Part shown: one piece after another, positions 12,354-61,568 of the stretch | How positions within the stretch are numbered: the stretch's first letter is position 1 | Layout: every line of letters begins with the position of its first letter | Assembly: GCF_039545795.1 (NCBI RefSeq) | Contig: NZ_CP154260.1 | Location: 4,035,001 to 4,099,000, forward strand | Length of the DNA: 64,000 nt | Source of the DNA: Chitinophaga niabensis | Lineage (GTDB): Bacteria; Bacteroidota; Bacteroidia; Chitinophagales; Chitinophagaceae | Direction: 5' to 3' | Translations under genes and position numbers: made by a program | The notes under the pieces: generated by a model | What the model saw: only the letters and a program-made list of their open reading frames with translations | Databases searched by the model: none | Told to the model about the DNA's origin: nothing

Positions 12354-12373
12354 GTTTTTGAGGTTTTAAGATG

Positions 12374-15751: not shown

Positions 15752-15982
15752 ATTACTATATTTTGTATTGCGAAATTTCCGGGGTTTGAAGTTTTTGGGA
15801 CTACAATTTAAACTTACAGCTTTATTGAGGCTTCTACAAATAAAGTTACAATTTCTTTTAAAAATCGTAACTTACATATAGCAATTAATTGTTTACTCCA
15901 AAGAACCCCAATATGATCTTGCAGCAGGCTGGCACTATTCCAGTGGAGTGACAATTATTTTTATTACCCCAAGCTATTTGTC
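15752..15982. promoter_or_regulatory. Divergent intergenic region with operator-like inverted repeat
   Basis: 231 bases separate the oppositely transcribed metacaspase-lipase and CHAT genes. At 15845-15871, GTTACAATTT and AAATCGTAAC form an inverted repeat with one mismatch over 10-bp arms and a 7-base spacer, near the middle of the gap. Its position would allow one regulator to control both operons. I could not assign a -33/-7 pair with confidence. No regulator gene lies in the cluster itself. Confidence 0.5.
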
Positions 15983-43831: not shown

Positions 43832-43901
43832 GTTTCCGTTTAGATGTAAGCTATTGAAGCCCGGAAATACATCCGGGTCAGATAAAATCAGCCCTCAGGG
43901 T

Positions 43902-43930
43902 AAGGGCAAAGCCCGATTTATGCCCTTTTT
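43902..43930 (+). terminator. Rho-independent terminator
   Basis: AAGGGCA and TGCCCTT pair around a 12-base loop and are followed by five T and an AT-rich tail. It separates the secreted-protein gene from the four-gene operon starting at 44058. Confidence 0.75.
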
Positions 43931-44057: not shown

Positions 44058-44864
44058 ATGACAGAGAAGATATTAAGCTTCCAGGAAGTTATTGATGAAC
44101 TTGTCCCCGGTAAGATCACCCCAAAGGACATGCTTCCATTTTGCCATACTACTACTATTGGATGCATGGCATCTATTTTAAAAACTAAATTTGCGGAACC
44201 CCGAAGCTGCGATGTTTACCAGGGCGAAAAATTACTCTATTTTTTCTATGGCAAGGCATCTTACGAAGTTGAAAAGGTGAACCAGTATACAGATAATCCC
44301 CCTTTTACACTGATCTACGACTGCGGGACCATAGGGGAGGATATTTCCAGGATTGTAGCTTTTGATTCCGGTGGTTTTCCTTTATTGAAAGCCAGAGCCG
44401 GATTTGATAAAGAACATTACACTTATTCTCCCGGTAATATCTACAAACTAATGGCTTACATCAAACTGATGTATGAAGATCATGTCAATTACCTGGGCAA
44501 TGAGATCAATTTAAAAAAGCTGGAAGCGTATAAAGACAGATGCCTGGAGATAGAGGAAATGCTGCGAATTTACACGGAGGTCAGTGCAGGCAGACTTCCT
44601 GTTGATGAAAGGGTATACTCCATAGAACTACAATTACAGCGCCATGTGAGCTTTAATCCCAAATACCTTGTGATCGCCTATGATCAGTATATTCTGCCAT
44701 TCTGGGGAAAGAATTTCACCAGCGCACACCCCGAGATCAAAGTAATTACTTACGGGCAGGCTGAATCAGAAGCCAATAAATTCCGTTCATTAAAAGCAGG
44801 TATCTATCAGGAACTGATGTACCAAAAGGTTAAATCCATTATTGAGAATAATATTCCCCGTTAA
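44058..44864 (+). CDS. Unknown protein with ART-like N-terminal motif, first gene of a four-gene operon
   Basis: 268 residues, no signal peptide. Residues 28-70 read FCHTTTIGCMASIL, then CDVYQGEKLLYFFYGKASYE. A His-Thr near the N-terminus, then I-L plus a Pro, then a strand with YFFYG and a Tyr is the spacing seen in small ADP-ribosyltransferase-like and KptA/DarT-like folds (His30, Tyr61, Tyr64, Tyr69). This is inference from pattern, not a recognised domain. Residues 145-195 are helical and charged; the end is FWGKNFTSAHPEIKVITYG. It precedes the next gene by 11 bases. Alternative: a wholly unrelated conflict-system protein. Confidence 0.7.
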   Translation: MTEKILSFQEVIDELVPGKITPKDMLPFCHTTTIGCMASILKTKFAEPRSCDVYQGEKLLYFFYGKASYEVEKVNQYTDNPPFTLIYDCGTIGEDISRIVAFDSGGFPLLKARAGFDKEHYTYSPGNIYKLMAYIKLMYEDHVNYLGNEINLKKLEAYKDRCLEIEEMLRIYTEVSAGRLPVDERVYSIELQLQRHVSFNPKYLVIAYDQYILPFWGKNFTSAHPEIKVITYGQAESEANKFRSLKAGIYQELMYQKVKSIIENNIPR

Positions 44865-44875
44865 CTATCTGATAA

Positions 44876-45877
44876 ATGAGTTATTATGATTATGCAGGTG
44901 CTATGGTTATACACCTGGCCTCCAGTAAATTTGTGACGTCTTTGTTTGTTGATGAAGAAGGAAAGTACTATATACAGGAAGAAGATAATGATATTATTAC
45001 GGGATTCTCCGATATTGTTCCTTCCCGGAAAATACTGCCTCCTAAAAGAAACATAAGGGTTTCTAAAGGAGATAATGTTATCCATACCTTCCTTGAATTC
45101 GAAAAGGAAAATGAAAAGGCAGATGACATAGACGATATATTCCAGTTTGATCTTAAATGTGGGGACAAAAACCACCTGGAAAAATCCCTGTTGCCGTTAT
45201 TACATAAAGACACATTGCCTGCCTATTCGAAACTAACCATCAGCTTATTCCTTAACCTGCACCAGAGAACAATCGCCTTTATTCAGGCTTCAAACAAAGA
45301 TCTCACATCACAGGGGATCACGGAACTGATTGACAAAGACAATGTATTCTCCGCCCCGTTCCCTTTGCTACATACTGAAGATGTACACAGAGACGTAAAT
45401 GAAAGGCATTCCGAATTCAAATCTGTTGATCCCAGCATTACATTGGAGGATATTGTTTTCCTCAACAAAGGAAGGTTCTTTTTCTCCGGTTATGAAATAA
45501 GCACCATACAATTTATCAACAGGAACTGCTTATTGGAAGTATATAAAGAGGAAATGATCTGCCAACTGATCAAATACTATTTCGAAAGGGACAGGCACTC
45601 TATCAGGATCATTATTAGCGAACATACGGAAGCCTGTAATTTCTTTAAATTATCCAATCACATGGATATGAGTCAACGTATAGTAGAATCCCTGCTGGTA
45701 GAAACTATTGAACCACAAAAGGACAAATCGGTCATCGATATCTGTTACGATACAGATAACGCCATTCACACTTTCAAAGCGAAACCAGGTAGGGAAGTAA
45801 CCTATACCATGGAACAGGAAAACAGCCTGTTCCAATCCGGCCAAACCATCATATCCAATTTCCTTAAAAAATTATAA
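44876..45877 (+). CDS. Unknown 333-residue protein, second gene of the operon
   Basis: I do not recognise a family. No signal peptide or membrane helix. The N-terminal 120 residues are beta-rich and acidic (GKYYIQEEDNDIITGFSDIVPS), and residues 120-190 contain LTISLFLNLHQRTIAF. The C-terminal part has EMICQLIKYYFERDRHSIRIIISEHTEA and VIDICYDTDNAIHTF. There is no P-loop and no cysteine cluster. Spacing is 11 bases from the gene before and 8 to the one after, which argues for a single transcript and a shared complex. Confidence 0.7.
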   Translation: MSYYDYAGAMVIHLASSKFVTSLFVDEEGKYYIQEEDNDIITGFSDIVPSRKILPPKRNIRVSKGDNVIHTFLEFEKENEKADDIDDIFQFDLKCGDKNHLEKSLLPLLHKDTLPAYSKLTISLFLNLHQRTIAFIQASNKDLTSQGITELIDKDNVFSAPFPLLHTEDVHRDVNERHSEFKSVDPSITLEDIVFLNKGRFFFSGYEISTIQFINRNCLLEVYKEEMICQLIKYYFERDRHSIRIIISEHTEACNFFKLSNHMDMSQRIVESLLVETIEPQKDKSVIDICYDTDNAIHTFKAKPGREVTYTMEQENSLFQSGQTIISNFLKKL

Positions 45878-45885
45878 TTGCAATC

Positions 45886-48336
45886 ATGGCCCCTAAAAAC
45901 GCAAATATCCCTGGTAGCGATTATCACTTTATCCTGAACTGTTATAGTGCTAACGATATTGGAGCGGTTATTAAAGACTTCAAACTGCAAATGGAAGGGT
46001 ATGAACTGCTGTATGCCATAGATATGTATGATATCATGGAAAAATACCTTCCCTATATCAAACCGGATCTTTTCTCTAACACTGACCGTAACTATCAGGC
46101 ACAGCGCATGATCTGTTATAAATACTTTTTCAGTGAATTAACCAATACCCCCGTTTTCCTGGTAAAAGAATATAACGTTGAACTGATTGCCGCCAAAAAT
46201 AAGATCAGAAAGCACCTGAGAGATGCCACTATTGTATTTCAGAACCTGATGCAGCTGAAAAAGGAAACAAATAACTTCCTGAATGACCCGGAAAAAACCG
46301 TTGTCTTTATACGGGATAACTTTGAGGTCCTTTTGATCTTATTAATGCTTAACAGCAGCGCTAAAACAGAGTTCCATGACTTTTTTGATTTCCTTCACAA
46401 AAGACTATTCATCTCAGAAATAAAAACCGAAAACAGCCAGCACCAGGAAACACTGAACCAGATCCTGGAAGACAGTCATTATACCCATTTTTTTGTAAAA
46501 ATATTTGAGAAGTATATCGATATGAATAAATATGCCCTCCTCTCCCTATCGGACCCTGAGGACCGGCATATTTTCCTTGAAAACACCTTCCGGGATACAC
46601 AGGTCATTGAAAAACTACTCAATATCAATGAACAGATCCGGAAACGGAAAATGAAATATGCCGTTTGTTACCTGTCATCTGCCAAAAAAACCAATGATAT
46701 ATTTAAGGCCATTGAAAACTACGGATCTTTTGACTATCCATTCCTCCATTTTGATCAAAGAAACATTAACAGGAACATTTACCAATACTTCCTCTTAGAC
46801 AGGCTAAAAAAAGAATTCGGCAGCAACCCGGAGAAAGCATTGGAAATACTGGAAAAACTACGTGATCTGCTGGCAAAGATAGAATCTGCCACCGGGCATA
46901 ACGCCGCGCGCCCGGTTGAATTGGAAAAGGAAACTATCCAGCTGGCAAAAATACTTTTCGATGATAAGCTGAGTAACCTGGATAATCACTTTTATTACAA
47001 TCTGTACCAAAGGTATAAATCAGCCTTTGGAGAAATAACTTACAATCAATATGCAGCCATCAGCGAGCATGAGATAAAAAAGATCGTCACCGAGATTGAC
47101 GAAAGCATTGACGGCAAAAGCCTCTCAAAGATCAATTCCCTGGAAGTAACCCTTTCCCTGCTGGAACAAAGGCTTGTAATGGTGGATACTTTCATTGGGG
47201 CCGAGGAATATGATCCCGAATACAGGTTCGGAAGGGACATCATACGAAACCCCTATCAACATCTCCCCAACATACCCTTGATACATGATAGATTTGATTC
47301 CCCCTTAAAGGATAAGATCTATGCTTTTCTCGATCTTAGTGCTGAAATACCAGGCGCTGCTATCCAACAGTTAAAAGACAGCTTCAAGGACATTGTGGAC
47401 GAACTGGCATTGATCAAAACGGATAACCTGGAGACCCATTTCCTGAAATATGTGATGACGGCCTACCTTACTTTTGTAGGACAAAGTAAATTAAAAATAC
47501 CTAAAGAGATTAAAGTTGAAAACTATTACCCGGAGATAGAAGAATCGCTCATCCTGGAACTGGAAGGGCTATATGAACGAATTAATTCCCAATACCTCAA
47601 AAGTGATCCGGACTCCATTCACAAAAATCAGCTGGAATTCTACCAATCCAAACCCGAGCTGTTATCCGAGATCATTTACATGCTGCTCTGGCTTTACAGA
47701 AGAAGCTTACAGGAAGACAAGGGCATTCAAAAGGCTATTAAGAACCATCATATCCATCATAATGATCCGAGGATACTGCAGGGCATTGCACTTTGTTATA
47801 TCTCCAAAGCCTATCAAAGCCTATCAGACGGTGCCTCCATGGAATATACAGATAAAGCCATTGACTACCTGGCAGCAGCCAGGGATAAATACCGGCAGCT
47901 GATACTGGAACAGCCAGGTAAAGACAAATTCTACCTGGTGACCCGGAACTATATTGCCATCCTGAACTCCATTGCTGATATGCATGTAAAAAAGTACCTG
48001 TTAGATCCGGAGTCAAAGAGAAATGAGGATCTGATCAGTACCGGCCGCCGGTGTATTGACGAGATCAAAATGCTTTATAAAGATATTCAGCTGGACTATG
48101 ACACCCACCCCGTTTACTCACTCACTGAAATTGAAATTGAATACTATGAAGCACTTCACTATTACAACAAAGGGATCATGGGAGAAGCGCACAAGAAAAT
48201 ATTCAGCGCCATATTCCGGGTGAAAAAGGTAAAAGAGATCCCTGAAGTGAATAAATATTATGCCGACATTCTTGAGAAAGGGGTCAGTCACTTATATGAA
48301 CTATCCAACAAGGTTATCCATCACAATAAAAGATAA
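45886..48336 (+). CDS. Large helical protein, possible PIN-like N-terminus and TPR-like C-terminus
   Basis: 816 residues. The N-terminus ELLYAIDMYDIMEKYLPYIKP places two acidic residues (Asp46, Asp49) after a strand, as in PIN-like nuclease folds, but later PIN acidic residues are not certain. The remainder is almost all helical: coiled-coil-like at about 330-440 and TPR-like at about 650-800 (ALCYISKAYQSLSDGASMEYTDKAIDYLAAARDKY). No P-loop or membrane segment. It is the third cistron, 8 bases after the second and 3 before the SLATT-like gene. A sensor or scaffold for the membrane protein is one reading; function unknown. Confidence 0.7.
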   Translation: MAPKNANIPGSDYHFILNCYSANDIGAVIKDFKLQMEGYELLYAIDMYDIMEKYLPYIKPDLFSNTDRNYQAQRMICYKYFFSELTNTPVFLVKEYNVELIAAKNKIRKHLRDATIVFQNLMQLKKETNNFLNDPEKTVVFIRDNFEVLLILLMLNSSAKTEFHDFFDFLHKRLFISEIKTENSQHQETLNQILEDSHYTHFFVKIFEKYIDMNKYALLSLSDPEDRHIFLENTFRDTQVIEKLLNINEQIRKRKMKYAVCYLSSAKKTNDIFKAIENYGSFDYPFLHFDQRNINRNIYQYFLLDRLKKEFGSNPEKALEILEKLRDLLAKIESATGHNAARPVELEKETIQLAKILFDDKLSNLDNHFYYNLYQRYKSAFGEITYNQYAAISEHEIKKIVTEIDESIDGKSLSKINSLEVTLSLLEQRLVMVDTFIGAEEYDPEYRFGRDIIRNPYQHLPNIPLIHDRFDSPLKDKIYAFLDLSAEIPGAAIQQLKDSFKDIVDELALIKTDNLETHFLKYVMTAYLTFVGQSKLKIPKEIKVENYYPEIEESLILELEGLYERINSQYLKSDPDSIHKNQLEFYQSKPELLSEIIYMLLWLYRRSLQEDKGIQKAIKNHHIHHNDPRILQGIALCYISKAYQSLSDGASMEYTDKAIDYLAAARDKYRQLILEQPGKDKFYLVTRNYIAILNSIADMHVKKYLLDPESKRNEDLISTGRRCIDEIKMLYKDIQLDYDTHPVYSLTEIEIEYYEALHYYNKGIMGEAHKKIFSAIFRVKKVKEIPEVNKYYADILEKGVSHLYELSNKVIHHNKR

Positions 48337-48339
48337 ACT

Positions 48340-48792
48340 ATGAGCGAACAATTAATCTTCCTGCGGACATCCATTGAAGAGCGGTTAAAGGGCAGCTCCG
48401 GACGCAGCCTGCACTACAAGCGGTATGCATTTTCTATCTTTATCAGTACCGCTATACTTGCGGCGGTAAGTTCCATACTACTGGGGCTGAAATTACAGGA
48501 CCCGACTCAGGCAGAGGTGATAAGGATCACTGTGCTGGTGATCAGCAGCATTATTAGCATTGCAACCGTTTATAGCGCCTTTTTCAACCACCGTGAATTA
48601 TGGATCGCCAACAATGATGCTGTTAACAGGTTCTACAAGCTCAGGTTCAAAATGGATTTCAGAGAAAAGTCGGAGATACCGCTAACACCGGGTGAGGTGG
48701 AAGAATTCGCAAAAGAGTACCAAACTATTGTGGATGATCAGAATCAGGCCTGGGAAAGGTCACGTAGGGCGAATGCTGTAACTAAGGGGTAA
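48340..48792 (+). CDS. SLATT-like two-helix membrane protein, last gene of the operon
   Basis: 150 residues. Two transmembrane helices at about 31-50 (FSIFISTAILAAVSSILLGL) and 60-82 (VIRITVLVISSIISIATVYS) are separated by a short loop. A cytoplasmic helical tail follows (LWIANNDAVNRFYKLRFKMDF, then an acidic helix). This is the layout of SLATT domains, which are predicted pore-forming effectors in bacterial conflict systems (family knowledge, Burroughs and co-workers). SLATT proteins usually sit beside nucleotide-synthesising or sensor genes. Here no cyclase is present; the upstream three genes take that place. It starts 3 bases after the previous stop. Confidence 0.75.
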   Translation: MSEQLIFLRTSIEERLKGSSGRSLHYKRYAFSIFISTAILAAVSSILLGLKLQDPTQAEVIRITVLVISSIISIATVYSAFFNHRELWIANNDAVNRFYKLRFKMDFREKSEIPLTPGEVEEFAKEYQTIVDDQNQAWERSRRANAVTKG

Positions 48793-49357
48793 GGGAGCTT
48801 TTAGGGAAGATGCTTGTATTTATGCGTATTGTCTTTATTAGCCTTTTGCCCTGTTGCAGACCTTGATGCCCACAGCATAAACACCCTATCTCTTAAATAA
48901 AATCCGGTATAATTACGCTGAATATGAATATTAATAACATCTTCGATAAAGATATTATTCAGGGGCAGTTCGTTTGTCAGAGCGGTATTACTCGGGGTTG
49001 CCTAAAAAAGTTATGTTTAGGGTGGGTATGTGTTGTAGAGGTTGTCTAACTATCGTTTTAAAAATTTCAAAAGGAGCATCATTAAGTTGATGCCCCTTTT
49101 TAATAAATTATAACCAAAATCAATATACTTAATCTCTAAAACATTTAAAAGTGGCACAAACCAGTTTGTTTACTGTTAAAAAAAAGGCATTTTAGCACCT
49201 TCTAACAAGGATATCTTACATAATTTTTTACTCAATTTGTTTATATTCGAAGCTACTAAATGGATGAGATAAAGTAGATCCAACCAATGACAGATAGGTG
49301 CTTGGCTCTATTTTCACAACTGTTGCATTCAAAACCAGAATAAACTACTAGATTTCT
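48793..49357. other. 565-base AT-rich gap without a supported gene
   Basis: No convincing ORF. At 49001-49050 two copies of a short element, GGGGTTGCCTA and GAGGTTGTCTA, are 42 bases apart and could be the decayed edge of an insertion sequence, but no transposase is present. A terminator hairpin lies at 49069-49101. The AT content rises sharply from here to 51.4 kb compared with the preceding genes. Confidence 0.6.
49069..49101 (+). terminator. Rho-independent terminator
   Basis: AAAAGGAGCATCA pairs with TGATGCCCCTTTT (one mismatch) around loop TTAAGT, followed by T. It could end transcripts from the four-gene operon. Confidence 0.75.
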
Positions 49358-50692
49358 ATGCTCGAAAAAATAAAAGAAAAAGCTGAGGCAAATGGGATCA
49401 AATCAAAAATAATGACAAGAAAGATTGAATCGATTCTTAATGCTCCCCGTGAACGAACCGACCTAATCATCCAAATGCCATATGAAAGGGATAATAAAAA
49501 TATTATCCTGAATAGTGAGCACCAAAATCTCACAGAAATTTTGGATTCAAATTTCGAAAAATTTAAGTTCTTAAAGGGCTTAGAGGCTATATACTCCAAT
49601 GAATTAGGGATAATTGAGTGCCAAATTGAATCTGACGACAGTTCTAGAATTTCTAAATTTCTATTTCGAAGAATAGCAAGCTACCTTAATACTGAAACGA
49701 ATGGAGAATTTCGAGAATTAGAAGGGACAGATGAAAAAGACTCAAATTTTAGAATCGATTTTCCTTCAAACCATGATAAATTGAAAATTTACATATCAGA
49801 ATCTTCCACTGAATTCTCTTTTCTATTTGGTTCCAAAAGCGATAGCTACTTCTTCAGGACGAAGTTACGTCCATTTAATGTAATAAGAATTGAAGGACTA
49901 AACTTTGAAACCCATAATCAAGCTAAAGAGCTACTAACAAATATTGCGAACTCCGCCTTTTTTCAATTAGACTTATTAATTGAAATTCCATTTCGTTTAT
50001 CTTCTGGCAGGGATTGGCAAGAAGAATTTCGCACTAAAAGAAAACTAGTCCAGAAAGGGAAAATATTAACTACACCAAAATTTCAATATGATCAAGAAGC
50101 AATATCTCTATACTGGTACGCAAGAACCGCTACCAATACACCGTTACTCCAATACCTCGCATTCTATCAAGTACTAGAATATTATTTCCCTTTGTATTCA
50201 GCAAAAGAAGCACGAGAACGGATTAGAAACTTACTTAAAGACCCAACATTTGATATAAATATTGAAAAAAACATTGCAAAAATATTAGATACTGTTAGAG
50301 TTTCTAGTAAATCAAAAGCCATTGGGGATGAAAGAAGCCAACTTAGGTCTACTATACTGAGTTGTGTGGATCTAAGTGATTTGGTTGAACATTTTGAGTC
50401 AAATGAAAAAGTTAAAAACTTCTTTTGCGATAGTAAAAAAGAAAAAAGCCTTGTAACTCAAAGGATATCATTCAATAGAAAAGATCATGATATAAGAGGA
50501 GATATAGCTAATCGTATTTACGATCTGAGGTGTCGAATTGTTCACACTAAAGAAGAAGCAGAAGTTGAGTTACTCCTTCCTTTTTCTCCAGATGTGACTT
50601 TAATCAGATATGATTTAGATTTGCTTGAATTTATAGCCAGAAAGGCCTTAATTGCAAACTGCAAGGAACTAAAATTTCAAGCTAAAATGTAG
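49358..50692 (+). CDS. HEPN-like (ApeA-like) protein, AT-rich orphan
   Basis: 444 residues. The N-terminal 230 residues are a beta-rich unknown domain. The C-terminal half (about 235-435) looks like a HEPN fold: SLYWYARTATNTPLLQYLAFYQVLEYYF is the first helix pair, and LRCRIVHTKEE supplies the R-x4-H motif (Arg391 to His396; the basic Arg393 is between). HEPN proteins are often RNases in anti-phage systems such as ApeA. The codon choice (many AGA, ATA, AAA) and low GC differ from the neighbours, so it was probably acquired separately. No toxin-antitoxin partner gene is next to it. Confidence 0.75.
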   Translation: MLEKIKEKAEANGIKSKIMTRKIESILNAPRERTDLIIQMPYERDNKNIILNSEHQNLTEILDSNFEKFKFLKGLEAIYSNELGIIECQIESDDSSRISKFLFRRIASYLNTETNGEFRELEGTDEKDSNFRIDFPSNHDKLKIYISESSTEFSFLFGSKSDSYFFRTKLRPFNVIRIEGLNFETHNQAKELLTNIANSAFFQLDLLIEIPFRLSSGRDWQEEFRTKRKLVQKGKILTTPKFQYDQEAISLYWYARTATNTPLLQYLAFYQVLEYYFPLYSAKEARERIRNLLKDPTFDINIEKNIAKILDTVRVSSKSKAIGDERSQLRSTILSCVDLSDLVEHFESNEKVKNFFCDSKKEKSLVTQRISFNRKDHDIRGDIANRIYDLRCRIVHTKEEAEVELLLPFSPDVTLIRYDLDLLEFIARKALIANCKELKFQAKM

Positions 50693-51420: not shown

Positions 51421-51861
51421 ATGACAGACGTACATTCAAAAGAAGTCAGAAGCTTCAACATGAGCCATATAAAGGGTAAAAACACTAAGCCCGAAATGCT
51501 GATTCGTCGATTTCTTTTTAAAAATGGCTTCCGCTACCGACTTCACGTCAAGAATTTACCAGGTAAGCCCGATTTGGTGCTTGCAAAGTATAAAATCGTC
51601 ATTTTTGTACATGGTTGTTTTTGGCATGGACACAAAGAATGTAAATACTTTGTGGTGCCTAAAACCAGAACAGAGTGGTGGCTCAATAAAATTACCCGAA
51701 ATGTCTCTTTAGATGAGAAAAATAAAGTAGAGCTTGTGCTACTTAACTGGGAGGTAATTGAAATATGGGAATGTGAATTAAAAAAAAACAATCTTGAAGC
51801 GACCCTCTCCTTATTACTCAATAAACTGAAAATGAATTCTTCATATGTCGGGAAACAGTAA
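51421..51861 (+). CDS. vsr: Very short patch repair endonuclease
   Basis: 146 residues aligning closely with E. coli Vsr. The active-site residues fall at the same numbers: Glu25 (KPEM), Asp51 in LPGKPD, His64 and His69 in VHGCFWHGH. RTEWWLNKI and WEVIEIWECEL are also conserved. Vsr nicks T:G mismatches left by 5-methylcytosine deamination, so it is a companion of a C5 methyltransferase, here the gene at 60036. It overlaps the HNH gene by 17 bases (start at 51845), so they are coupled. In MutL-type R-M systems a Vsr-like nuclease may instead act in restriction. Confidence 0.95.
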   Translation: MTDVHSKEVRSFNMSHIKGKNTKPEMLIRRFLFKNGFRYRLHVKNLPGKPDLVLAKYKIVIFVHGCFWHGHKECKYFVVPKTRTEWWLNKITRNVSLDEKNKVELVLLNWEVIEIWECELKKNNLEATLSLLLNKLKMNSSYVGKQ

Positions 51862-52861
51862 AAATGCATGGACCCTAAAATCGAAGGGCATTGAAAGCGC
51901 ATTTGGGGGAAATGAAGGTTATCCTGATAGCCCTCAATCGCACTATATATATGATACAACGGTAAAAAATCACGACAAAGTAGGCATAGGGGATCTTATT
52001 GTTATCACAGGTAAGAAACAAATTATAGGAATTGCCACCATAGAAGATATAAAAATTGAGAACAATATATCCAAAGTCCGTTTTCGTTGTCCAATTTGCA
52101 GAAATCAGGAAATTTCGGTCAGAAAGAATATTACCCCAAAATACAAATGCAGAAAAAAACATGAATTTGATGAACCTGTAACCCAAGAAATAGTAGTAAC
52201 CCGATATAGCGCCTACTATGGATCATCTTTTAAGCCGGCTTCAGGGCTTGCAACCAATATACTTAAACCATACTTTGTAAAGCACAATCTTTATTATTCA
52301 ATACAGAAAATGCAACTATCTTTCTTTCAGGACTACTTTCCAGGGTTAACAACTCATTATGCCGGTACTGAAAAGAAACAAGATATTATAAGAAAAAAGA
52401 TTCAATTACCCCTTTTGCCATATGAACCAGACAACAAAGATGAACGGGGAAGGAAAAGTCGTATTCAGCCTACCCGTCAAGGACAGGAAAAATTCAGAGC
52501 TGGCTTATTTGAAATATATGGCGTTGCCTGCATGCTAACCGGGTGTACCGTGGCCAGGACTCTTGAGGCCAGTCATATTAATCCATATAGGGGACTTAAA
52601 GACCACCATTTGGAAAATGGTTTTTTGTTCCGAAAAGATTTCCACGCTTTATTTGACAGCAATCTCATGGGGGTGAATCCGGAGACCCTCACTATTCATT
52701 TACACCCAACTTTAAAAACAACCTGTTATGAAGAGTTTGATGGACAAAGGCTGACCATCAACCGCGATGACTTCGGTCCTTCAAAACAGGCCATGATGAT
52801 ACGTTGGGAAATCTTCTGTTCCGCCTGTCAGGATCAGCGTCTTCGCATACCACCGTTATAA
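51845..52861 (+). CDS. HNH endonuclease with possible EVE/PUA-like reader and zinc-ribbon
   Basis: 338 residues. The N-terminal part has GIGDLIVITGKKQIIGIATIED, reminiscent of EVE/PUA-like modified-base readers (inference). RCPIC and YKCRKKHEF then suggest a small zinc-binding knuckle. The C-terminal HNH nuclease is clear: FEIYGVACMLTGC, ASHINPYRGLKDHHLENGFLF and ALFDSNLMGV carry the H-N-H motif and metal site. It is likely the nuclease effector of the adjacent R-M island, cutting DNA by modification state. The start overlaps vsr; the last 28 bases overlap the end of the convergent AIPR gene. Confidence 0.85.
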   Translation: MSGNSKNAWTLKSKGIESAFGGNEGYPDSPQSHYIYDTTVKNHDKVGIGDLIVITGKKQIIGIATIEDIKIENNISKVRFRCPICRNQEISVRKNITPKYKCRKKHEFDEPVTQEIVVTRYSAYYGSSFKPASGLATNILKPYFVKHNLYYSIQKMQLSFFQDYFPGLTTHYAGTEKKQDIIRKKIQLPLLPYEPDNKDERGRKSRIQPTRQGQEKFRAGLFEIYGVACMLTGCTVARTLEASHINPYRGLKDHHLENGFLFRKDFHALFDSNLMGVNPETLTIHLHPTLKTTCYEEFDGQRLTINRDDFGPSKQAMMIRWEIFCSACQDQRLRIPPL

Positions 52862-54882
52862 ATCTGCAGGATTCCCGCTGCCATTTCCACCATCTGCTCC
52901 GTAAGCGGTTTTTGCCTACGCAAATTATTGATAATATTACTGATCGCTCCTGTTTGTATCAGTGTTAACCGGCCTGTTTCTTTCCCAATCTGTTCAATTT
53001 TCTCCCATTCTTCGATCGATAAATCGGAAATCGCATTAAGAGCCCCTTCATCTGTAGTAGTTTTGTCATCATCTTTCCGATATAAATGACGAATGGACAA
53101 TAATGCTATCCCCCAATTCTTAGGGGCATAACGTTTCAACTCCTGCCAGCAAATTTCACGTTTAGCCCACTCACTCACAAGAGCATACTCAGCCGGCTTT
53201 TTATCCTGCAGATATTGGTTAACATTCATCAAAACATCCTGAAGCACAGCCTCTAATTCCTCCGGAATTACCTGCTGATGCCAGATCTCTTGTAAATCTA
53301 TTTTTCCTTCCGTGTAATAATTCAGCCAGGCCAACGCATAAGGAACAGCAAGATAACGAAGGTCTCCCATTGCCAAGGGCTTTCTGCCATAAAGCCTTTC
53401 GCCAGCGTTAAACAGAAGCGCAATTGCAGCAGTTTCTTTAAAGTATTCACGCGTAGGAGTTCTTTTCCCTTCTGCTTCAATAAAATGCAGGTAGTTTTTC
53501 TGGCTCCCCCTAGCCACAACATAGGGTGCCTGATACCAGGCATTCCTGAATTTCGCAAACTCTTCTTTCCGGACTACCTGATGAGGAGGATTTCTATCTT
53601 TAAAATCGGTTTTACCTTTTGAGGTATGCGCTTTATTGATCTCTTCTTTATACTGTCCCTTTACACGCTCATAATACCAGCGGGTTTGCTGATAGCCAGT
53701 AACAGGGCTGGCCCAGGTGGTTCTGGATAATTCCTCTAAAGTGATATGAAAAGCCTGATTGGATGAAAAATCTGTTTCACTTACTTTATTCTGACTATTG
53801 GCATATTTTGAAATCCGGGCAACCACCTTCTCCATTTGGCTGTCATCATCTATTAATGTGATCTTCATTTGTACATACACCTGGCTGAGATCAGCACGAT
53901 CCTTTTTCCGGGCGTAGTAAATAGAAGAAGTTGTCTGCCCACCATTGACAATCTGAAGGCCTTTTATATATTTCAATATACCGGTTTCCGATGACTCATC
54001 GTTTATAACGGTCAGTTGGGTTGCTGTAGCTGATATACCGTTATTGTATGCCAGAAACATTTCTGGTGATTCCAGGATCGTTCTTCGAATTTCCTTATTT
54101 ACTTTTCCCAGGTTCTGCAAATATACTCTCACATTCTGTTCCAATAACCGTGAACCATAAGCATCATAAAGATCAGCTAGCAATTGCCCAGGTACAATAC
54201 TGAGGTAAGATATATAACCCTTTTTACTACGTTCAATCGAAAGGCAACGTATTTTCTGTGCAAATCGCTCAGGAATATTAATTTCTATAGCCTCACGTTT
54301 GCGTTGAGAAGACCAAATCTGAAAAATCCGCTCCAGGTCCCATATTTCCGTGAATACCGACAAATCGCCAGCATGCATTTTTTCCGTCTTCATTCCCTTT
54401 CGGACAATTCCATCCGTAAGCAGAATGATTCTAACCCGCAGTAAATTTTCCTTCAGGCTGATAAAATTCTGCTGAAACTCACGTTCTTCCGCAGCGTCTT
54501 CTGTTGCATTAAAATCTCCTTTATTCATATAATTAAGGTATTTCAATGCCAGATTGATACTTGCGGTGGTACTGCTTTTCTCCAGCACATAAGGGATTCC
54601 TGTGCCATTGTAATCAGCGATAAAAATATCCAGTGTTTCATAATTGTCCCACAACCCGTAACCATTGATCTGACGTAGCCTGCTTCCGCTTTTAGTGCGA
54701 TGTACAGCTGTACATACTCTGGCATTCCCGGTTTCATTTACATCTGTCAGGTATTCAATCGCCAGTTGAGTAAAGGCTGCTTCCCGAAAACCGCCATTTC
54801 CGCTCTGCCTCATGGATTCCGATACTTCCTGGGCCAGAAAGCCAGCAAAATTATTCAGCTCTGCATTTGCTTTAGTAGCCAT
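52834..54882 (-). CDS. AIPR (abortive infection phage resistance) protein
   Basis: About 682 residues from ATG 54882 (MATKANAELNNFAGF), 4 bases after the Z1 stop; an ATG at 54924 would lie inside Z1. The AIPR core is clear: SPEMFLAYNNGISATATQLTV, IKGLQIVNGGQTTSSIYYA and KISKYANSQNKVSETDF. AIPR proteins accompany Z1/MutL-type R-M genes and abortive-infection loci. Their biochemical role is not settled. It is the last cistron of the minus-strand operon. Confidence 0.93.
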   Translation of the reverse strand: MATKANAELNNFAGFLAQEVSESMRQSGNGGFREAAFTQLAIEYLTDVNETGNARVCTAVHRTKSGSRLRQINGYGLWDNYETLDIFIADYNGTGIPYVLEKSSTTASINLALKYLNYMNKGDFNATEDAAEEREFQQNFISLKENLLRVRIILLTDGIVRKGMKTEKMHAGDLSVFTEIWDLERIFQIWSSQRKREAIEINIPERFAQKIRCLSIERSKKGYISYLSIVPGQLLADLYDAYGSRLLEQNVRVYLQNLGKVNKEIRRTILESPEMFLAYNNGISATATQLTVINDESSETGILKYIKGLQIVNGGQTTSSIYYARKKDRADLSQVYVQMKITLIDDDSQMEKVVARISKYANSQNKVSETDFSSNQAFHITLEELSRTTWASPVTGYQQTRWYYERVKGQYKEEINKAHTSKGKTDFKDRNPPHQVVRKEEFAKFRNAWYQAPYVVARGSQKNYLHFIEAEGKRTPTREYFKETAAIALLFNAGERLYGRKPLAMGDLRYLAVPYALAWLNYYTEGKIDLQEIWHQQVIPEELEAVLQDVLMNVNQYLQDKKPAEYALVSEWAKREICWQELKRYAPKNWGIALLSIRHLYRKDDDKTTTDEGALNAISDLSIEEWEKIEQIGKETGRLTLIQTGAISNIINNLRRQKPLTEQMVEMAAGILQIYNGGMRRR

Positions 54883-54886
54883 AATA

Positions 54887-57800
54887 CTAATTCTCATTTT
54901 CATTCTCCGGATCTTCTTCTGCATCCGGCGCGTTATTTAATTCCTGCAGGTAAACATCGTTTGCCATATATGGGATCATTTTGTCATTTTCGATTTGAGG
55001 CAGACTGATCGCATAGCCCGTTGCAGGAAGGTCATTGCGGCCTCCAAAACCGACAGGATCCAGCAGATAAATGAGCAATAATGCATTTTGGGGTCCACGA
55101 TACTCCCGAATATACTTTCCTGCAGGGAATTTTGGCCCACCCTTTGACTTACTATTCCTGATAGTATCATCCCATGCCTTTATATAGCGTTCATCCGTTT
55201 CTTCCATATCTATGTATTCGTGAGGCGGACTGATGATGCGTGATTGGCGAATTATGTAGTTTGAAGGATCAACAGTAACCTGGCTCCCTTTTTTCTTAAT
55301 ACTTTCTTTACGTTCAGTCCTTCCTACCGCAATCTTTTTGCTGTCAACCTGAAGGCCAAAGGGAGTATCATCATTGGAATTATTAATCAGCACTACTGTC
55401 CAGTTGATCAGGTTTCCATTTTTTAACTGTAGCGTGATATACCGGCGAATAAAATCCGTCCGGATATTTTGTTGTCCGGTGTCATAGTTTTCCAGGAATA
55501 CATCAATGGATGAATAACTAACATTCTCCCAGATATATGGCTGGCTCTGACGGACTTTTCCTGAAACAGGCCCAAGAACCTGAGCCAGTTTAACCAATGC
55601 ATCCAAATTTTTATGCAATATTTCAGGAGATTTACTAAGTATATACGTTTCGAGCAGTTGTCCGGAATAGCTGAGACGCAGTTCTGTAGCTCCCTTTATC
55701 TTGGCTGCAGCAGAAATCATCAGCGTTCCGGGCGCCGATCTTACCTTCAAACCAAAGTTGCCGGGATTTCGCTCCGCCAAATCCATAATATCAAACTGTT
55801 CCTTCAATTCCTCCGTAGCATTGCCGATGTATTGATACCAGGTAATCAATTCCCACGTGGTAAATACCCTGCATAAATCAGCATAACCTTGCCTGTAGCC
55901 AAACCAGCGGCCCATTTGCAGCAAAGTATCGTAAAATCTCGTAGCGCGTAGGAAGTAGCTGACAGACAATCCTTCAAGGGTTAGGCCTCTGGAAAGCTTG
56001 TTCCCTCCAACAGCTATGACGGATAATCCTTCCTTTTGGTAATCATTATAGTTTAAAGGCATCACATTGTCGTAAGGCATTCCTTTTTTGGGGCCATGAA
56101 CAGCACGAACATCTATCTTCTCAATGGCCTGACTTAGAAAAGGCGCAATTTCTTCCCAGTCGTGTTCCATCATGCGGGGATCTTCATACCCCAACCTCTC
56201 AGCGATTTTCTCCGTTCGCCCCTTGAATTCGTCTGTCCAGACCTGCATTAATGTTTCCGTAAATTTTCCATCAGGATTGTAGCGCAGAATATTCTTTTTT
56301 GCTTGAAGATAATCGTTGACAAGTCCTGCAATATGATTGATCCAGTCGATATACCAGGAAACGTGAACCAGCATGGAATTGTGTTCCCTCGCCTGCCCTC
56401 TCGCAATTCTGATGGCGCAAACTATGATAAAACAATTGACCGCATTTTCCAACGAAGGAGGAATTGCCTCCGGTTTAGTGTCTTCCTTGAGATGTTTTTT
56501 GGGAATATACAGTTCAAAATCGTCTACAATATCCATCATAGGCAGCACATCTTCATCAGCTCCATTTTCCCTATCTGTATTAAAGACTTTGGTATAACCG
56601 ATATAATTGGACGGTGGGGGAATATTGATGATGAAATCTTTGGGAAACAGATCCTTCCCAAGCCTGAAACGCTTTCCGTCAATAATAAGATCCTTATCTT
56701 CCGTCTTATTGCGGTCTGAAATAAAAATATTGGCAAACGGCGTAGCGGTGTAGCCTACAAAGGCACTTTGTTCAAACAACCCCAGCGTAGAGCGGATGTA
56801 ACCATTTATTTTAGAAACAAACTCCTTATCCACGTTAATCGAAGCATAATCAGCTTCATCATCAATGATGAGCAGGGGTATGTTTCTGATAATTCTATAA
56901 TTCCCGTCCTCTTTTCCTTGTGCATATAACCAAGCCAGCAGCGTTCTTAAAACAGTTGGATTTTTTTTAATGACTAATGCATAATAGTCCTTTGTGTCTA
57001 AGGGCAAATTCTTCATGGACGATGTTTTGAGATCGCCATTGTCACCTACTCCTGTGATAGGATGCACCGGAATGCTGCTTCTATGTTTTCCTACACCAAT
57101 AACACTCTGTTCGCCTGGAACAGAGGAGGCACCGGAAAAACCTTCATCCACGCGGTACTGTGTTTGCTGGCGAAGGTTTTCATACAAACCGGAAAGAATG
57201 ATAATAATACGAAATCCAGCATCCGCAGCCTTGTTGATCAAACCAATATAATTACTTGTTTTGCCGGATTGAACATCTCCTACAATCATACCTCTTTTAT
57301 CCCAAATTCCAGGTTTGAGGGGATCGCCAATACGATTCAGAATATCATCTGTGAGATGATCCAACTTTGTAATCGTAGTAGCTGCCAGCCCTTTTTCATC
57401 AAGGTATTTTTTATATGCATTCCAGAAATTCCAGACAATCTGACCCTTCCTTTCTTTCACCCATTCATGCTCAGGTTTTTGGTTTTCAAATATCTGGTGC
57501 TCCGGATTAGAAACAATATGTTTACTTTCCAGGGTCGCCTGCAATGCCAACCTGTTCAATAAAGCATCCAGGTTCTCCTTACCATAAAATACCTCGGCAC
57601 CTTTAATGCCGGCATTGAGTGCTCTTACAACTCTTTCTGGTTTTATTTCGTCCTCATTTACTAGATAAGGCATTGCACCTCCCACAACAGCTTCTTTGAT
57701 TTCCACCCTATCTTTCATTTGCAATTGTTCCTTTTCAAGCTGCACTTTTATTTCTTCCACCAGCTGCCCTTGCAGTGCTTCCTCAATCAGTTTTTGGGCT

Positions 57801-58039
57801 TCTGCAAAATCATTAAGGTTCAATGCAAAATGGACGGCTCCCTGATACAGGATAGAACGGGAAAGTACGGCATTTTCGTCTTTCAGGAACTTTGCCGCCG
57901 CCTTTTCATAATTCAAGGCATGCTGTATAAATTTCCAATAGCTTTTTTGTTCGTTTCTCCTATTCGCGAAAAAAGCCATTTCGGCAAAGTCCATAGCTTC
58001 CTCGTGCCAGTTGTTCACTTTACGGATATCTTCGCTCAT
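54887..58039 (-). CDS. Z1-domain superfamily II helicase-like ATPase
   Basis: 1050 residues. Walker A is VGDVQSGKTSNY (about 254-261), motif II LLIIDDEADYAS, and motif VI MGRWFGYRQGY, with NKLSRGLTLEGLSVSYF preceding it. This is the Z1 helicase-like module of MutL/MORC-type R-M systems (family known from Iyer and Aravind). It would be the DNA-translocating or remodelling motor. The start overlaps the PD-(D/E)XK-like gene by 4 bases (ATGA) and AIPR begins right after its stop, so the three are coupled. Confidence 0.94.
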   Translation of the reverse strand: MSEDIRKVNNWHEEAMDFAEMAFFANRRNEQKSYWKFIQHALNYEKAAAKFLKDENAVLSRSILYQGAVHFALNLNDFAEAQKLIEEALQGQLVEEIKVQLEKEQLQMKDRVEIKEAVVGGAMPYLVNEDEIKPERVVRALNAGIKGAEVFYGKENLDALLNRLALQATLESKHIVSNPEHQIFENQKPEHEWVKERKGQIVWNFWNAYKKYLDEKGLAATTITKLDHLTDDILNRIGDPLKPGIWDKRGMIVGDVQSGKTSNYIGLINKAADAGFRIIIILSGLYENLRQQTQYRVDEGFSGASSVPGEQSVIGVGKHRSSIPVHPITGVGDNGDLKTSSMKNLPLDTKDYYALVIKKNPTVLRTLLAWLYAQGKEDGNYRIIRNIPLLIIDDEADYASINVDKEFVSKINGYIRSTLGLFEQSAFVGYTATPFANIFISDRNKTEDKDLIIDGKRFRLGKDLFPKDFIINIPPPSNYIGYTKVFNTDRENGADEDVLPMMDIVDDFELYIPKKHLKEDTKPEAIPPSLENAVNCFIIVCAIRIARGQAREHNSMLVHVSWYIDWINHIAGLVNDYLQAKKNILRYNPDGKFTETLMQVWTDEFKGRTEKIAERLGYEDPRMMEHDWEEIAPFLSQAIEKIDVRAVHGPKKGMPYDNVMPLNYNDYQKEGLSVIAVGGNKLSRGLTLEGLSVSYFLRATRFYDTLLQMGRWFGYRQGYADLCRVFTTWELITWYQYIGNATEELKEQFDIMDLAERNPGNFGLKVRSAPGTLMISAAAKIKGATELRLSYSGQLLETYILSKSPEILHKNLDALVKLAQVLGPVSGKVRQSQPYIWENVSYSSIDVFLENYDTGQQNIRTDFIRRYITLQLKNGNLINWTVVLINNSNDDTPFGLQVDSKKIAVGRTERKESIKKKGSQVTVDPSNYIIRQSRIISPPHEYIDMEETDERYIKAWDDTIRNSKSKGGPKFPAGKYIREYRGPQNALLLIYLLDPVGFGGRNDLPATGYAISLPQIENDKMIPYMANDVYLQELNNAPDAEEDPENENEN

Positions 58040-58563
58040 ATTTCTCCAGTTAAGGTTTTTGGGGTACTAAATTCCACAATTATCGCACAAGCAGGCAATC
58101 CCATATCTGCTGACCGCGTGGTCTGCCCAAGTTTTTCGTTCAAACGGTATTTCAACTCCCCGTCTGTACCTTTCATTTTACCGCTTACTTCCAGTCTAAG
58201 TTTATTCTCAAACGGATACCCCTCTTTTTCTTCTCCACACCAGAAATCGAATCCGGTTCCTTTCCATGAACGACTTACCTTAAATCCATGACAGTGATAA
58301 ATCAGCGCTACAGCAACGCCCATGGCACCATATTCAATAGCCTCCTGTTCATCATTGAGACTATTTTTACTCGATTCATCAACCATCAGCCGGGATAACA
58401 AATAGGATTCGGAAATCGAACCTTCTACAGGAATTACAACATCAAGCGGATGAGCATGGTGGTTCAGGCATACAGATGCACTTTCTGCAAGAAATCCGCC
58501 ATATCGGACAGACAATCCCGTGCTATGACCATCTTCTAATGTCTTAAGATCCAGTTTTTTCAT
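58036..58563 (-). CDS. PD-(D/E)XK-like protein of the R-M island
   Basis: 175 residues. GTGFDFWCGEEK followed by ENKLRLEVSGKM gives the D-x(n)-E-x-x spacing of a minimal PD-(D/E)XK nuclease: Asp in FDF, Glu in LEVSG, though Lys is replaced by Ser-Gly. So it may be a nuclease or an inactive DNA-binding relative. A preceding helical part has EQEAIEYGAMGVAVALIYHCHGFKVS. It lies between the GHKL and Z1 genes, with a 4-base overlap to Z1. The usual family is longer, so this could be a shortened subfamily. Confidence 0.75.
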   Translation of the reverse strand: MKKLDLKTLEDGHSTGLSVRYGGFLAESASVCLNHHAHPLDVVIPVEGSISESYLLSRLMVDESSKNSLNDEQEAIEYGAMGVAVALIYHCHGFKVSRSWKGTGFDFWCGEEKEGYPFENKLRLEVSGKMKGTDGELKYRLNEKLGQTTRSADMGLPACAIIVEFSTPKTLTGEI

Positions 58564-58572
58564 ATGTGGTAA

Positions 58573-60066
58573 TTAATCCTTCAGGCTTTCCAGCAAGTGT
58601 GTATAATTACTGAAGGGGTCTATAAAATAAAGTTCTTCTCTGGCCTGAGCCTTTGAATAGCCTTCTTTCAACAGTCGCTGATAAGTTGCCTGCATAAGCT
58701 CATTTACCTCGCTATCATTTACTGAAATGCAGGGACTATGGGGATTATCTGCATTTAAACTTTCGTTCAATACAATTGTGGGAATGGGTAATGTAACTTC
58801 CAGTAAGCGTAACACCTTTTCCAGTTCTTTCTGCTGCGGCTTAAGTTGTTCCGCCAGTGCCCGTATAAGCGGATGATTTCTGTTGATCTGAAAATAATCC
58901 CGGCCATTCTCTTCAATGGTCGTCCAGACAAATTCAAAATGCGAACGACCGGATTTCCGCTGTTTTTGCTTTCCCCGGTGTTTGTATACTTCACTTGCGG
59001 CTTTTCTGATAGCGGCACCATATCGTTTCAATTCATCGCGAAACATCCTTGGTGGTATAGCACGAGATTTCCGGATATCCAGCTGCCAGGCAAAGTCTAG
59101 GTCTGAATCAATATCAATCATAATTCTGGCCAGCCGTGTAAATTCTTCTTTTTTAAACAATTGCAGCCAATCCCCGGATACCAACATGCGGTCCTTCCTG
59201 TAAATATAAAAGCCCTGATGTGCATTCCATCCGTTTGCACCTGCCGCATTATGCCAGGTTTCAACGCTAATTTTTTCCTGATGTGGCAATACATAACCGG
59301 CAACCCTGATGCGATCTCCGGAAAAAGACTCAGCAGGGAATGCCTGCGTAAATTTCTCATCACGTAGAAAAGGATCCCAGGGGATAATCGCATTGTTGTT
59401 GATCCATATTTTCAGCTTTTTCCCTTCTAAAAAACGATGAAATACCATAGCCAGATGCTGCTCAACCTCCCGTACAGATTCATAGAACTTTGCTTCCGAG
59501 ATGAGTCTGTTTTCCTGATCATAGACCACCCTATCAAGGTTTTCCCATACAACCGTGGTACCAGATGGCTGTCGTTCAAGGGGCTTCATAAGCTGAGGTT
59601 CCGATAAATATTCCAAAATTTCCCATTCATTACAATACTCCACATAATCCAAATTCCAGGATCTGTAATGAATTTCCCCTGCTTCTTTTTCTTTGGTAAT
59701 GACTGTGAGAATCCGGCATTGGGAAAAAGAAGCCGTTTTCAGGCCCAGGCCAAACCGCCCCAGATCTTCCGGACGACGGTCGCCCAGCGGATTATGTGTA
59801 CCAGGCCGCAGGGCCTCTACCAAATGATCTCTAATCATCCCATGCCCGTCGTCATGAATAGTAATGTACGACTTGTCCTCTGCCCAGATAAAATCCAGGC
59901 GCACACTTCCCGCACCTGCTGAAATACTGTTATCTACAATATCGGCAAGCGCGGTGGGGAGGTTATATCCAATTGCCCTGAACGTTTCTATAAGAGAATC
60001 CGGAGAAGGGGGAATCCTTTCCGCCCTGGATTTTTTCAGGTGTTCAAATTCCTTTTTCGATAACAT
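58573..60066 (-). CDS. GHKL (MutL/MORC-like) ATPase
   Basis: 497 residues. Residues 20-200 carry the GHKL ATP-binding motifs: N box ALADIVDNSIS (Asp45/Asn46 in place of Glu-Asn), G1 DDGHGM (72-77) and G2 GRFGLGLKTAS (103-113). The middle has a transducer-like S5 fold; the C-terminal third is helical. It matches the bacterial ATPase from which eukaryotic MORC proteins are thought to derive, a component of MutL-type R-M systems. It overlaps the DNMT end by 31 bases, so translation is coupled. It probably clamps DNA and works with Z1. Confidence 0.93.
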   Translation of the reverse strand: MLSKKEFEHLKKSRAERIPPSPDSLIETFRAIGYNLPTALADIVDNSISAGAGSVRLDFIWAEDKSYITIHDDGHGMIRDHLVEALRPGTHNPLGDRRPEDLGRFGLGLKTASFSQCRILTVITKEKEAGEIHYRSWNLDYVEYCNEWEILEYLSEPQLMKPLERQPSGTTVVWENLDRVVYDQENRLISEAKFYESVREVEQHLAMVFHRFLEGKKLKIWINNNAIIPWDPFLRDEKFTQAFPAESFSGDRIRVAGYVLPHQEKISVETWHNAAGANGWNAHQGFYIYRKDRMLVSGDWLQLFKKEEFTRLARIMIDIDSDLDFAWQLDIRKSRAIPPRMFRDELKRYGAAIRKAASEVYKHRGKQKQRKSGRSHFEFVWTTIEENGRDYFQINRNHPLIRALAEQLKPQQKELEKVLRLLEVTLPIPTIVLNESLNADNPHSPCISVNDSEVNELMQATYQRLLKEGYSKAQAREELYFIDPFSNYTHLLESLKD

Positions 60067-61568
60067 CGGATACCGGTTTCAATGGTGAACCTGATTGCTT
60101 CTGCAATGCTGGTAGCCATCAACGGAGGTACTGCATTACCTATTTGCCTGAACGCAGCATTCATTGCGCCGGCAAACTTAAAACCATCAGGGAATGATTG
60201 TAACCTGGCCGCCTCTCTGACGGAAATAGTGCGGGCTTGGTTACTATCATAATGAATATGTGAATAGCTGTCTTTACCAAGGTGCGCCATTAATGTGCGT
60301 GAAGGCTGATCTTCCTCCATTTTACGCCACTTATTTGGGAATTTGCTGACATCATATGGCGGAATGGTTTCTTTAAGCAATTTTTCATACTTTTTTGACC
60401 TCTTCGAAATAGGTTTACCCCTTGCTTTTTCTTCCTTCCTGATTTTTTGCGTCAACAATATGTTGGCCACTTCAATTGCTTCCGGATATTGATCTCCAGG
60501 CTCCATTCTTTCGAAAATAGGATAATCACGCGGCAAGAAGCGGATAACGTTGCTGCAAACGGTATTGACAACTGGCAGGCCAGGCCAGTTACGCATTAAA
60601 GTCTGATAACCGTTCTGTGGAAGACGGCTGTATGGTAGTGGAGTATCCAGTTTTTTGGCACCTCTTTTCATCTTGTTTTCAAGATGTTCTGTCAGTAATG
60701 GAAGATCGGAAAGCGCATCGCTGGCAGAATATGCACCAGGCAGAGCAGCAGTGGGTTCCGGCGGAGCGGTATAATGCCGGGCAGTTGTTTCTTCCGACAA
60801 AATATATTTAAGTGCCACATTTCTTGAGCCATGATACCCCTTTGGCAATTCAATAAAATGGGTAGGCGCAGGAAACAGAATATCAGCGTTTACACTTGAA
60901 TGAATAGCAATGAGAAACATACGTTCCCTCATCTGCGGAACGCCATAATGGGCTGAATTTAGTAATGTATACTGACATTTGAATCCTAATTCATTCAGAT
61001 CATCACATACTAACTCAGCAATATTAACCCCTCCATAGTTCAGCATATCCGGGACATTTTCCATCAGTATAGCCATCGGTGCCAGGGATTTAACATATGA
61101 GAGGTACTGCTTGTAAAGCTGACTTCTCGGATCTTTCAGGAATGCATGCTGATTACTGAAAGTTTCACGCAGTTTGGCCCGCCCTATTCTGGTAAAGGCC
61201 TGGCAAGGAGGACCTCCTATGATCACATCCACCTGGGCTTTAGGATTGCCAACTAAACCAATTTCTTTTAATAACTGCTCAGGATCAGTTACCTGAATGT
61301 CTCTTGAACGTGCATGTTGAGAGAAAAAAGGATCATCTTTATGAAAATTTATGGCATGTGATTCGGCAGCTTCTTCATCTAATTCAATCCCTGCAATGAC
61401 TTTGTATCCTGCCTTACTAAATCCCAGCGACAATCCTCCGCAACCGGAAAATAAATCCAACACCCTTAGATTCTCTCCCTCCAAAAGGCGTTCTATTTTC
61501 TGGTTAATAAAATCATTATATCCATCAATTCCGGGAACTGATAACGGCCGGTCTAATACTTCATTCAT
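60036..61568 (-). CDS. C5-cytosine DNA methyltransferase
   Basis: 510 residues with all main C5-MTase motifs: I LDLFSGCGGLSLGF (SAM), IV GGPPCQAFTRIGR with catalytic Cys122, VI MENVP, VIII-like QYTLLNSAHYGVPQ and X RQIGNAVPP. The target-recognition region (about 260-430) is not assignable to a sequence specificity. It is the first gene of the minus-strand R-M operon and protects host DNA. Its product 5mC deaminates to T, which explains the nearby vsr. No promoter is confidently visible upstream in the AT-rich gap. Confidence 0.96.
   Translation of the reverse strand: MNEVLDRPLSVPGIDGYNDFINQKIERLLEGENLRVLDLFSGCGGLSLGFSKAGYKVIAGIELDEEAAESHAINFHKDDPFFSQHARSRDIQVTDPEQLLKEIGLVGNPKAQVDVIIGGPPCQAFTRIGRAKLRETFSNQHAFLKDPRSQLYKQYLSYVKSLAPMAILMENVPDMLNYGGVNIAELVCDDLNELGFKCQYTLLNSAHYGVPQMRERMFLIAIHSSVNADILFPAPTHFIELPKGYHGSRNVALKYILSEETTARHYTAPPEPTAALPGAYSASDALSDLPLLTEHLENKMKRGAKKLDTPLPYSRLPQNGYQTLMRNWPGLPVVNTVCSNVIRFLPRDYPIFERMEPGDQYPEAIEVANILLTQKIRKEEKARGKPISKRSKKYEKLLKETIPPYDVSKFPNKWRKMEEDQPSRTLMAHLGKDSYSHIHYDSNQARTISVREAARLQSFPDGFKFAGAMNAAFRQIGNAVPPLMATSIAEAIRFTIETGIRCYRKRNLNT

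Follow-up and report, generated by a model that had tools for sequence, protein, structure and literature searches.

A four-gene operon of Chitinophaga niabensis joining a predicted ADP-ribosyltransferase to a SLATT membrane protein looks like an undescribed anti-phage system

Introduction

What do four tightly packed genes of Chitinophaga niabensis do together, if the last encodes a membrane protein of the SLATT layout and the first three match no known family? The locus lies at positions 44058 to 48792 of the window, by which we mean the whole stretch of 64,000 nucleotides analyzed here (contig NZ_CP154260.1, positions 4,035,001 to 4,099,000, of assembly GCF_039545795.1, a 7.2 Mb genome in one contig). 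The original prediction, made from the letters alone, placed an ADP-ribosyltransferase (ART)-like protein, a 333-residue protein and a large helical protein on the sensor/activator side of a membrane effector. Our analysis indicates that the four genes form a conserved unit and that the first encodes a predicted ART of DarT-like fold belonging to a wider two-gene family. The operon looks like an undescribed anti-phage system, in which this enzyme is more likely the effector or signal-maker and the second gene, with the third, the regulator or sensor.

Results

The four genes follow one another on the plus strand: gene 1 (44058-44864, 268 amino acids (aa)), gene 2 (44876-45877, 333 aa), gene 3 (45886-48336, 816 aa) and gene 4 (48340-48792, 150 aa). 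The open reading frame (ORF) coordinates confirm gaps of 11, 8 and 3 bases, and the operon has a GC content of 40.5%, the window one of 44.0%. Genes 1 to 3 reach the cut-off of no family in Pfam, NCBIfam, PADLOC or PHROGs, as had been claimed of them; in PADLOC-DB, used in its 2023 version, they match no family even at E 1 and no known anti-phage model.

Conservation was followed by scanning a collection of 84,980 species once with two gene-3 peptide patterns, which yields a lower bound. A close gene-3 homologue is present at no fewer than five other loci, those of Chitinophaga SYP-B3965, Pedobacter steynii, Mucilaginibacter oryzae, a Flammeovirgaceae metagenome-assembled genome and Puia dinghuensis. 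Genes 1, 2 and 3 are adjacent and in the same order at all five, and gene 4 follows gene 3 at four, Puia dinghuensis being the exception. Identity to the window proteins ranges from 51 to 22% for gene 1, 40 to 16% for gene 2, 53 to 29% for gene 3 and 57 to 34% for gene 4, and it drops in nearly identical order of loci for all four genes. A gene order that recurs across genera between proteins of 16-57% identity is, by these alignments, more than chance. The operon is also rare and patchy: of 79 genomes in the genus, two have gene 3 (the window's own and, apparently, SYP-B3965), as do one of 395 in a phylum sample (the own only) and four of 396 in an order sample (the own and three distant ones); among 59 relatives, two have gene 2. 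At the Puia locus, gene 2 was assigned by position and alignment (16% identity), BLAST giving no match. There an ORF of 190 aa, hydrophobic in four stretches, lies directly upstream of gene 1 (L007:5657-6235), which gives the impression that a different predicted membrane protein has replaced the membrane part; PADLOC returned one weak match to it (E 0.03).

Gene 4 scores 79.1 bits against NCBIfam SLATT_1 (cut-off 41) and 27.5 bits against Pfam DUF4231 (cut-off 24.7). Its hydropathy profile displays two hydrophobic stretches, at residues 30-48 and 60-78, in agreement with the two-helix layout first noticed; its homologues have two such stretches in three of four cases and one in L004. Judged by the curated profile, gene 4 is a SLATT protein and not an ordinary membrane protein devoid of SLATT similarity. 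Weaker PADLOC matches are to reverse transcriptase (RT)-associated SLATT (E 1.7e-4), to two-transmembrane-helix (2TM) effectors and to ThsA (E 0.0054), and PHROGs gave one weak match to a family of unknown function (E 0.0024). A PDB sequence-profile search found nothing convincing for gene 4. The search of the genome for SLATT_5 had no match, as had its controls, and is uninformative.

The gene-1 structure was predicted with a pLDDT of 90 and presents an ART fold in the DarT arrangement. Foldseek places DarT at ranks 1 to 6, as the best PDB matches, and ranks 1 to 23 of the VIA search are DarT and what we take to be other ART-superfamily entries, with the exception of CC0527. Residues H30, F63, P82, D103, G105 and E190 are invariant in 21 aligned homologues; E190, present in 21 of 21, stands at a strand start in the model, and its match to the ART glutamate (E152 in DarT1) was judged by eye. 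Membership of DarT by sequence was rejected: gene 1 has no Pfam match, nor have five homologues (L018, L019, L021, L022 and L027), and four hhalign comparisons with six or seven DarT proteins gave 0.06-0.14%. The genome of the window has no match to PF14487 (DarT), and the gene-1 profile, searched against PDB sequences, returned only a GCN4 fusion (E 0.086). In a viral-structure library, the one match below E 1e-3 is an uncharacterized Tupanvirus protein (E 2.3e-4); the other matches are uncharacterized too and are not informative. On the model, then, gene 1 is DarT-like by fold and not by sequence, and is a predicted ART, which bears out the first half of what had been proposed for it.

The other half, its place on the sensor/activator side, had to be corrected in view of the wider family. 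A distant gene-1 homologue (P0009) led through tblastn to 12 plasmid records, from Rhizobium, Bradyrhizobium, Sinorhizobium, Methylobacterium, Phaeobacter, Caballeronia and Paraburkholderia. The order sample (3 of 298 genomes, the own included) supplied two more Bacteroidota loci, and the phylum sample (2 of 326, the own included) added only a weak and broken match (G125: E 7e-4, two internal stops). One query of phage records found no member. Profiles of the operon clade (nine rows) and the proteobacterial clade (eight rows) align with a probability of 99.8% (E 1e-27, 244 columns) and make up a single family of Bacteroidota and Proteobacteria. Twenty loci were inspected (the window, L003-L007, L018, L019, L021-L028 and L037-L040), 12 of them from plasmid records. 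A second gene directly follows gene 1 at 19, the frames overlapping in 12 of these; at L021 its annotated start is 86 bases downstream, yet the reading frame extends without a stop as far back as gene 1. The exception, L039, holds a gene-1 fragment only. The original prediction would have been refuted by homologues of genes 1 to 3 lying mostly apart. This is not so for the close homologues, which stand together at five of five loci, and is partly so for the wider families: the 14 gene-1 loci that do not belong to the operon group showed no gene 3, and three distant relatives of gene 3 lie in an operon that lacks genes 1 and 2.

The second genes share a domain with gene 2, where it covers residues 4-109 approximately. 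When the N-terminal 125 residues of gene 2 from the six operon loci were compared by hhalign with those of ten proteobacterial partners (without L018 and L019), the probability was 92.3% (E 5.4e-7, 91 columns), and 94.0% with these two added; since settings were chosen between versions, both figures are somewhat favored. Control shuffles of the columns, made on the version with 12 partners only, reached its score in 0 of 100. An earlier version (ten partners, 150 against 130 residues, L021 from its annotated start) had given 5% (P 0.008); the later one added two partners, trimmed each side to 125 residues and read L021 upstream of the annotated start. Each of the 12 partners was also tested singly against the others, L040 standing outside this set: L023, L024, L025, L027 and L037 are weak (11-34%) and six others reach 59-99%. 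The L019 partner, which on visual inspection had seemed to contain the domain, was rejected at 0.4% in this test and 0.06-0.36% in profile tests. With that exception, these profiles indicate that the N-terminal domains are homologous.

Beyond this domain the partners, which reach some 900 aa, vary. The L018 partner carries tetratricopeptide repeats (TPRs) over the Pfam cut-off, L026 has a sub-threshold TPR, and most other C-termini have no Pfam domain, in regions of up to about 800 residues. No macro or NADAR antitoxin domain was found by Pfam in genes 2 to 4, nor is one listed for 11 partners (for L018, among the best 25 of 31 families), and the PDB sequence-profile search with gene 2 gave nothing convincing. 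A constant enzyme, followed by a second gene with a constant N-terminus and a variable C-terminus, makes it more likely that gene 1 is the effector or produces the signal and that gene 2, together with gene 3, regulates or senses. In L019 the second gene (L019:7058-8646, minus strand) has a C-terminal uL23 domain, that of a ribosomal protein (Pfam, 90 bits), possibly a target mimic or ribosome anchor.

Gene 3 is built of an α/β and helical region (approximately 1-340) and a C-terminal TPR superhelix (approximately 470-816); it is the large helical protein of the original prediction. The VIA rows span mostly residues 422-816, and the N-terminal part is barely covered by the fold search. Pfam gave one match far below cut-off (14.3 against 27), and PDB sequence profiles none convincing, with the IFIT2 TPR at E 0.013. 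In L018, TPRs and the gene-2 domain are parts of one protein, a hint that the window's genes 2 and 3 work together. At least 21 gene-3 proteins, the own included, occur among 5.8 billion sequences, from the best 7986 candidates scored; neither one tblastn of plasmids nor one scan of viral contigs found a relative. A second type of operon, A-B-C (L013, L014 and L048), has a distant gene-3 homologue as its third gene and lacks genes 1 and 2; in L013 and L014, neither A nor B matches a Pfam family.

Hairpins resembling terminators flank the operon on the plus strand, upstream at 43897-43926 (-11.1 kcal/mol) and downstream at 49069-49100 (-14.8 kcal/mol), each followed by a U tract. A consensus scan lists the downstream site on both strands and, near the upstream hairpin, only a minus-strand stem at 43891-43907. 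The flanking terminators that had been proposed do fold as hairpins, but they are plausible and not established, since the total of six such sites in the region is no higher than in shuffles (mean 4.8, standard deviation (sd) 2.2).

Discussion

Taken together, the operon may be a conflict system, probably anti-phage and of the abortive-infection type, a reading to which we give about an even chance. The constant pairing suggests that gene 2 would bind and restrain the transferase of gene 1. Infection would be sensed by the half that varies, which here is mainly gene 3 as a TPR protein of its own; this variability and the L018 protein, in which TPRs are naturally fused to the gene-2 domain, both point to such a role. 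Release upon infection is conceived by analogy with CmdTAC, as described in PMC11618068. The freed transferase would modify a nucleic acid, a protein or a metabolite, and the SLATT protein could damage the membrane as a second effector, possibly as a pore, as the SLATT literature leads one to expect. Gene 1 is DarT-like by its modeled fold and not by sequence; its activity is predicted, and the anti-phage function is one that we infer.

In a first alternative, gene 1 would make a soluble ADP-ribose conjugate from NAD+, or would modify gene 2 or 3, and the product would gate the SLATT protein, the sole killer, much as membrane ThsA is gated by TIR products in TM-macro Thoeris (TM, transmembrane). 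PMC9503650 predicts SLATT proteins to be membrane effectors regulated by ADP-ribose derivatives and places their genes beside TIR genes; likewise, PMC11204291 describes a TM-macro ThsA that binds ADPR-type ligands. The weak ThsA match of gene 4 goes in the same direction, as does the fact that each of the six operon loci, the window included, has gene 4 or a different predicted membrane protein. Against it stand the lack of a recognized ligand-binding domain on gene 4 and the 14 other gene-1 loci, at which no SLATT gene was noticed, although no systematic scan for SLATT was made; gene 1 thus probably works without SLATT as well. We regard this alternative as unlikely.

Equally improbable, in our estimate, is a plain toxin-antitoxin pair, gene 1 the toxin and gene 2 the antitoxin, that would help to maintain a plasmid or island and to which genes 3 and 4 were added later. 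The overlap of the two frames in 12 of 19 pairs and the plasmid origin of 12 of 20 loci fit it, and DarTG and CmdTAC offer precedents (PMC11543638, PMC11618068). The size of the partners and their widely varying C-termini are, however, unlike an ordinary antitoxin, and the four-gene form has been retained across genera. That gene 3 is itself the effector, a PIN-like nuclease in its N-terminal α/β region which genes 1 and 2 merely activate, is very unlikely: the strand-helix order with conserved D46, E99 and D237 and the occurrence of its family in third place of an operon that lacks genes 1 and 2 would suit it, but hhalign to five PIN_8 proteins gives 0.4% with 3 of 60 shuffles equal, and Pfam finds no PIN match at E 0.1 among 21 members of the family.

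The restrained-transferase reading is best seen beside the known systems. DarTG (DarT1/DarT2) shares with it the DarT-like ART fold, with a conserved glutamate that may stand at the place of the ART glutamate, a partner gene that directly follows, and a defense context at some loci. Unlike DarT, gene 1 has no PF14487 match and an insignificant profile score, and its partner presents its own conserved N-terminal domain in place of a recognized macro or NADAR domain. CmdTAC (ART toxin, antitoxin and SecB-like chaperone) is similarly a multi-gene operon of an ART with regulators, possibly with the same release-on-infection logic, whereas here no SecB-like chaperone was recognized, and a SLATT gene and a large TPR protein are added. 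The SLATT-coupled systems, which we take to include TIR-SLATT, CD-NTase/2TM, RT-SLATT and GAP1 systems, likewise hold a SLATT protein within a conflict operon; in the present operon no TIR, nucleotidyltransferase, reverse transcriptase or GTPase was recognized, and the candidate NAD-using enzyme is a DarT-fold ART. In TM-macro Thoeris, too, a two-helix membrane protein adjoins an NAD-using enzyme (here a predicted one), but neither TIR nor macro domain was recognized in our operon.

No published description of the operon or of the gene-1/gene-2 pair was found in titles and the beginnings of abstracts, mostly of open papers, as subscription papers lay largely outside the search; the combination appears undescribed, in accord with the original prediction, though a description may exist. 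To the original prediction our analysis adds the gene-1 ART fold, the wider family of gene 1 and its second gene, the shared gene-2 domain, the gene-3 TPR superhelix and the defense neighbors. If the reading is correct, an ART-centered module of Bacteroidota and Proteobacteria, whose members, where scanned, are unmatched by Pfam, NCBIfam, PADLOC and PHROGs, would join DarTG and CmdTAC among ART-based defenses, here coupled to SLATT. Its constant-plus-variable partner would make sensing specificity testable by comparison of C-termini, and the operon offers a test of SLATT gating by an ART.

A bolder proposal, which we hold to be unlikely, is that of a new class of immune operon, in which a DarT-fold ART, and not a TIR or CD-NTase, makes the ADP-ribose signal or modification that opens SLATT. 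A mobile two-gene core of transferase and constant docking domain would then receive its infection cue from swappable C-termini (TPRs, possibly a uL23 mimic). This form is drawn from the SLATT and ADP-ribose prediction in PMC9503650 and from TM-macro Thoeris as presented in PMC11204291.

Genomic neighborhood

Of the 20 loci, 5 have defense genes in their vicinity: the window and L027 have Mza, L025 has Gabija, L018 Cmr3-like genes and L039 CBASS. In the window, a Mza-like system (MzaB, MzaC and MzaE matches) with Vsr, HNH and C5 methylase genes occupies 51421-61568, approximately 2.6 to 13 kb from the operon. L027 directly follows MzaD/MzaE-like genes, L025 comes after Gabija genes and a PDC-S31 match, and L018 is near Cmr3-like ORFs. 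On a Paraburkholderia plasmid the gene-1 fragment adjoins an annotated CBASS operon (L039:3501-7435). PADLOC scans of neighbors covered few loci, besides the upstream membrane ORF of L007; one neighbor each of L019 and L026 had no match.

Two further observations concern the window. Just past the downstream hairpin, between the operon and the Mza-like region, a gene at 49358-50692 resembles MauJ (Pfam) and DzbB (PADLOC, E 4.7e-11). At 9750-21024, two caspase-domain genes (one with an α/β-hydrolase-like region), a CHAT-domain gene and a large gene with a P-loop, recognized by eye, likely constitute another conflict cluster.
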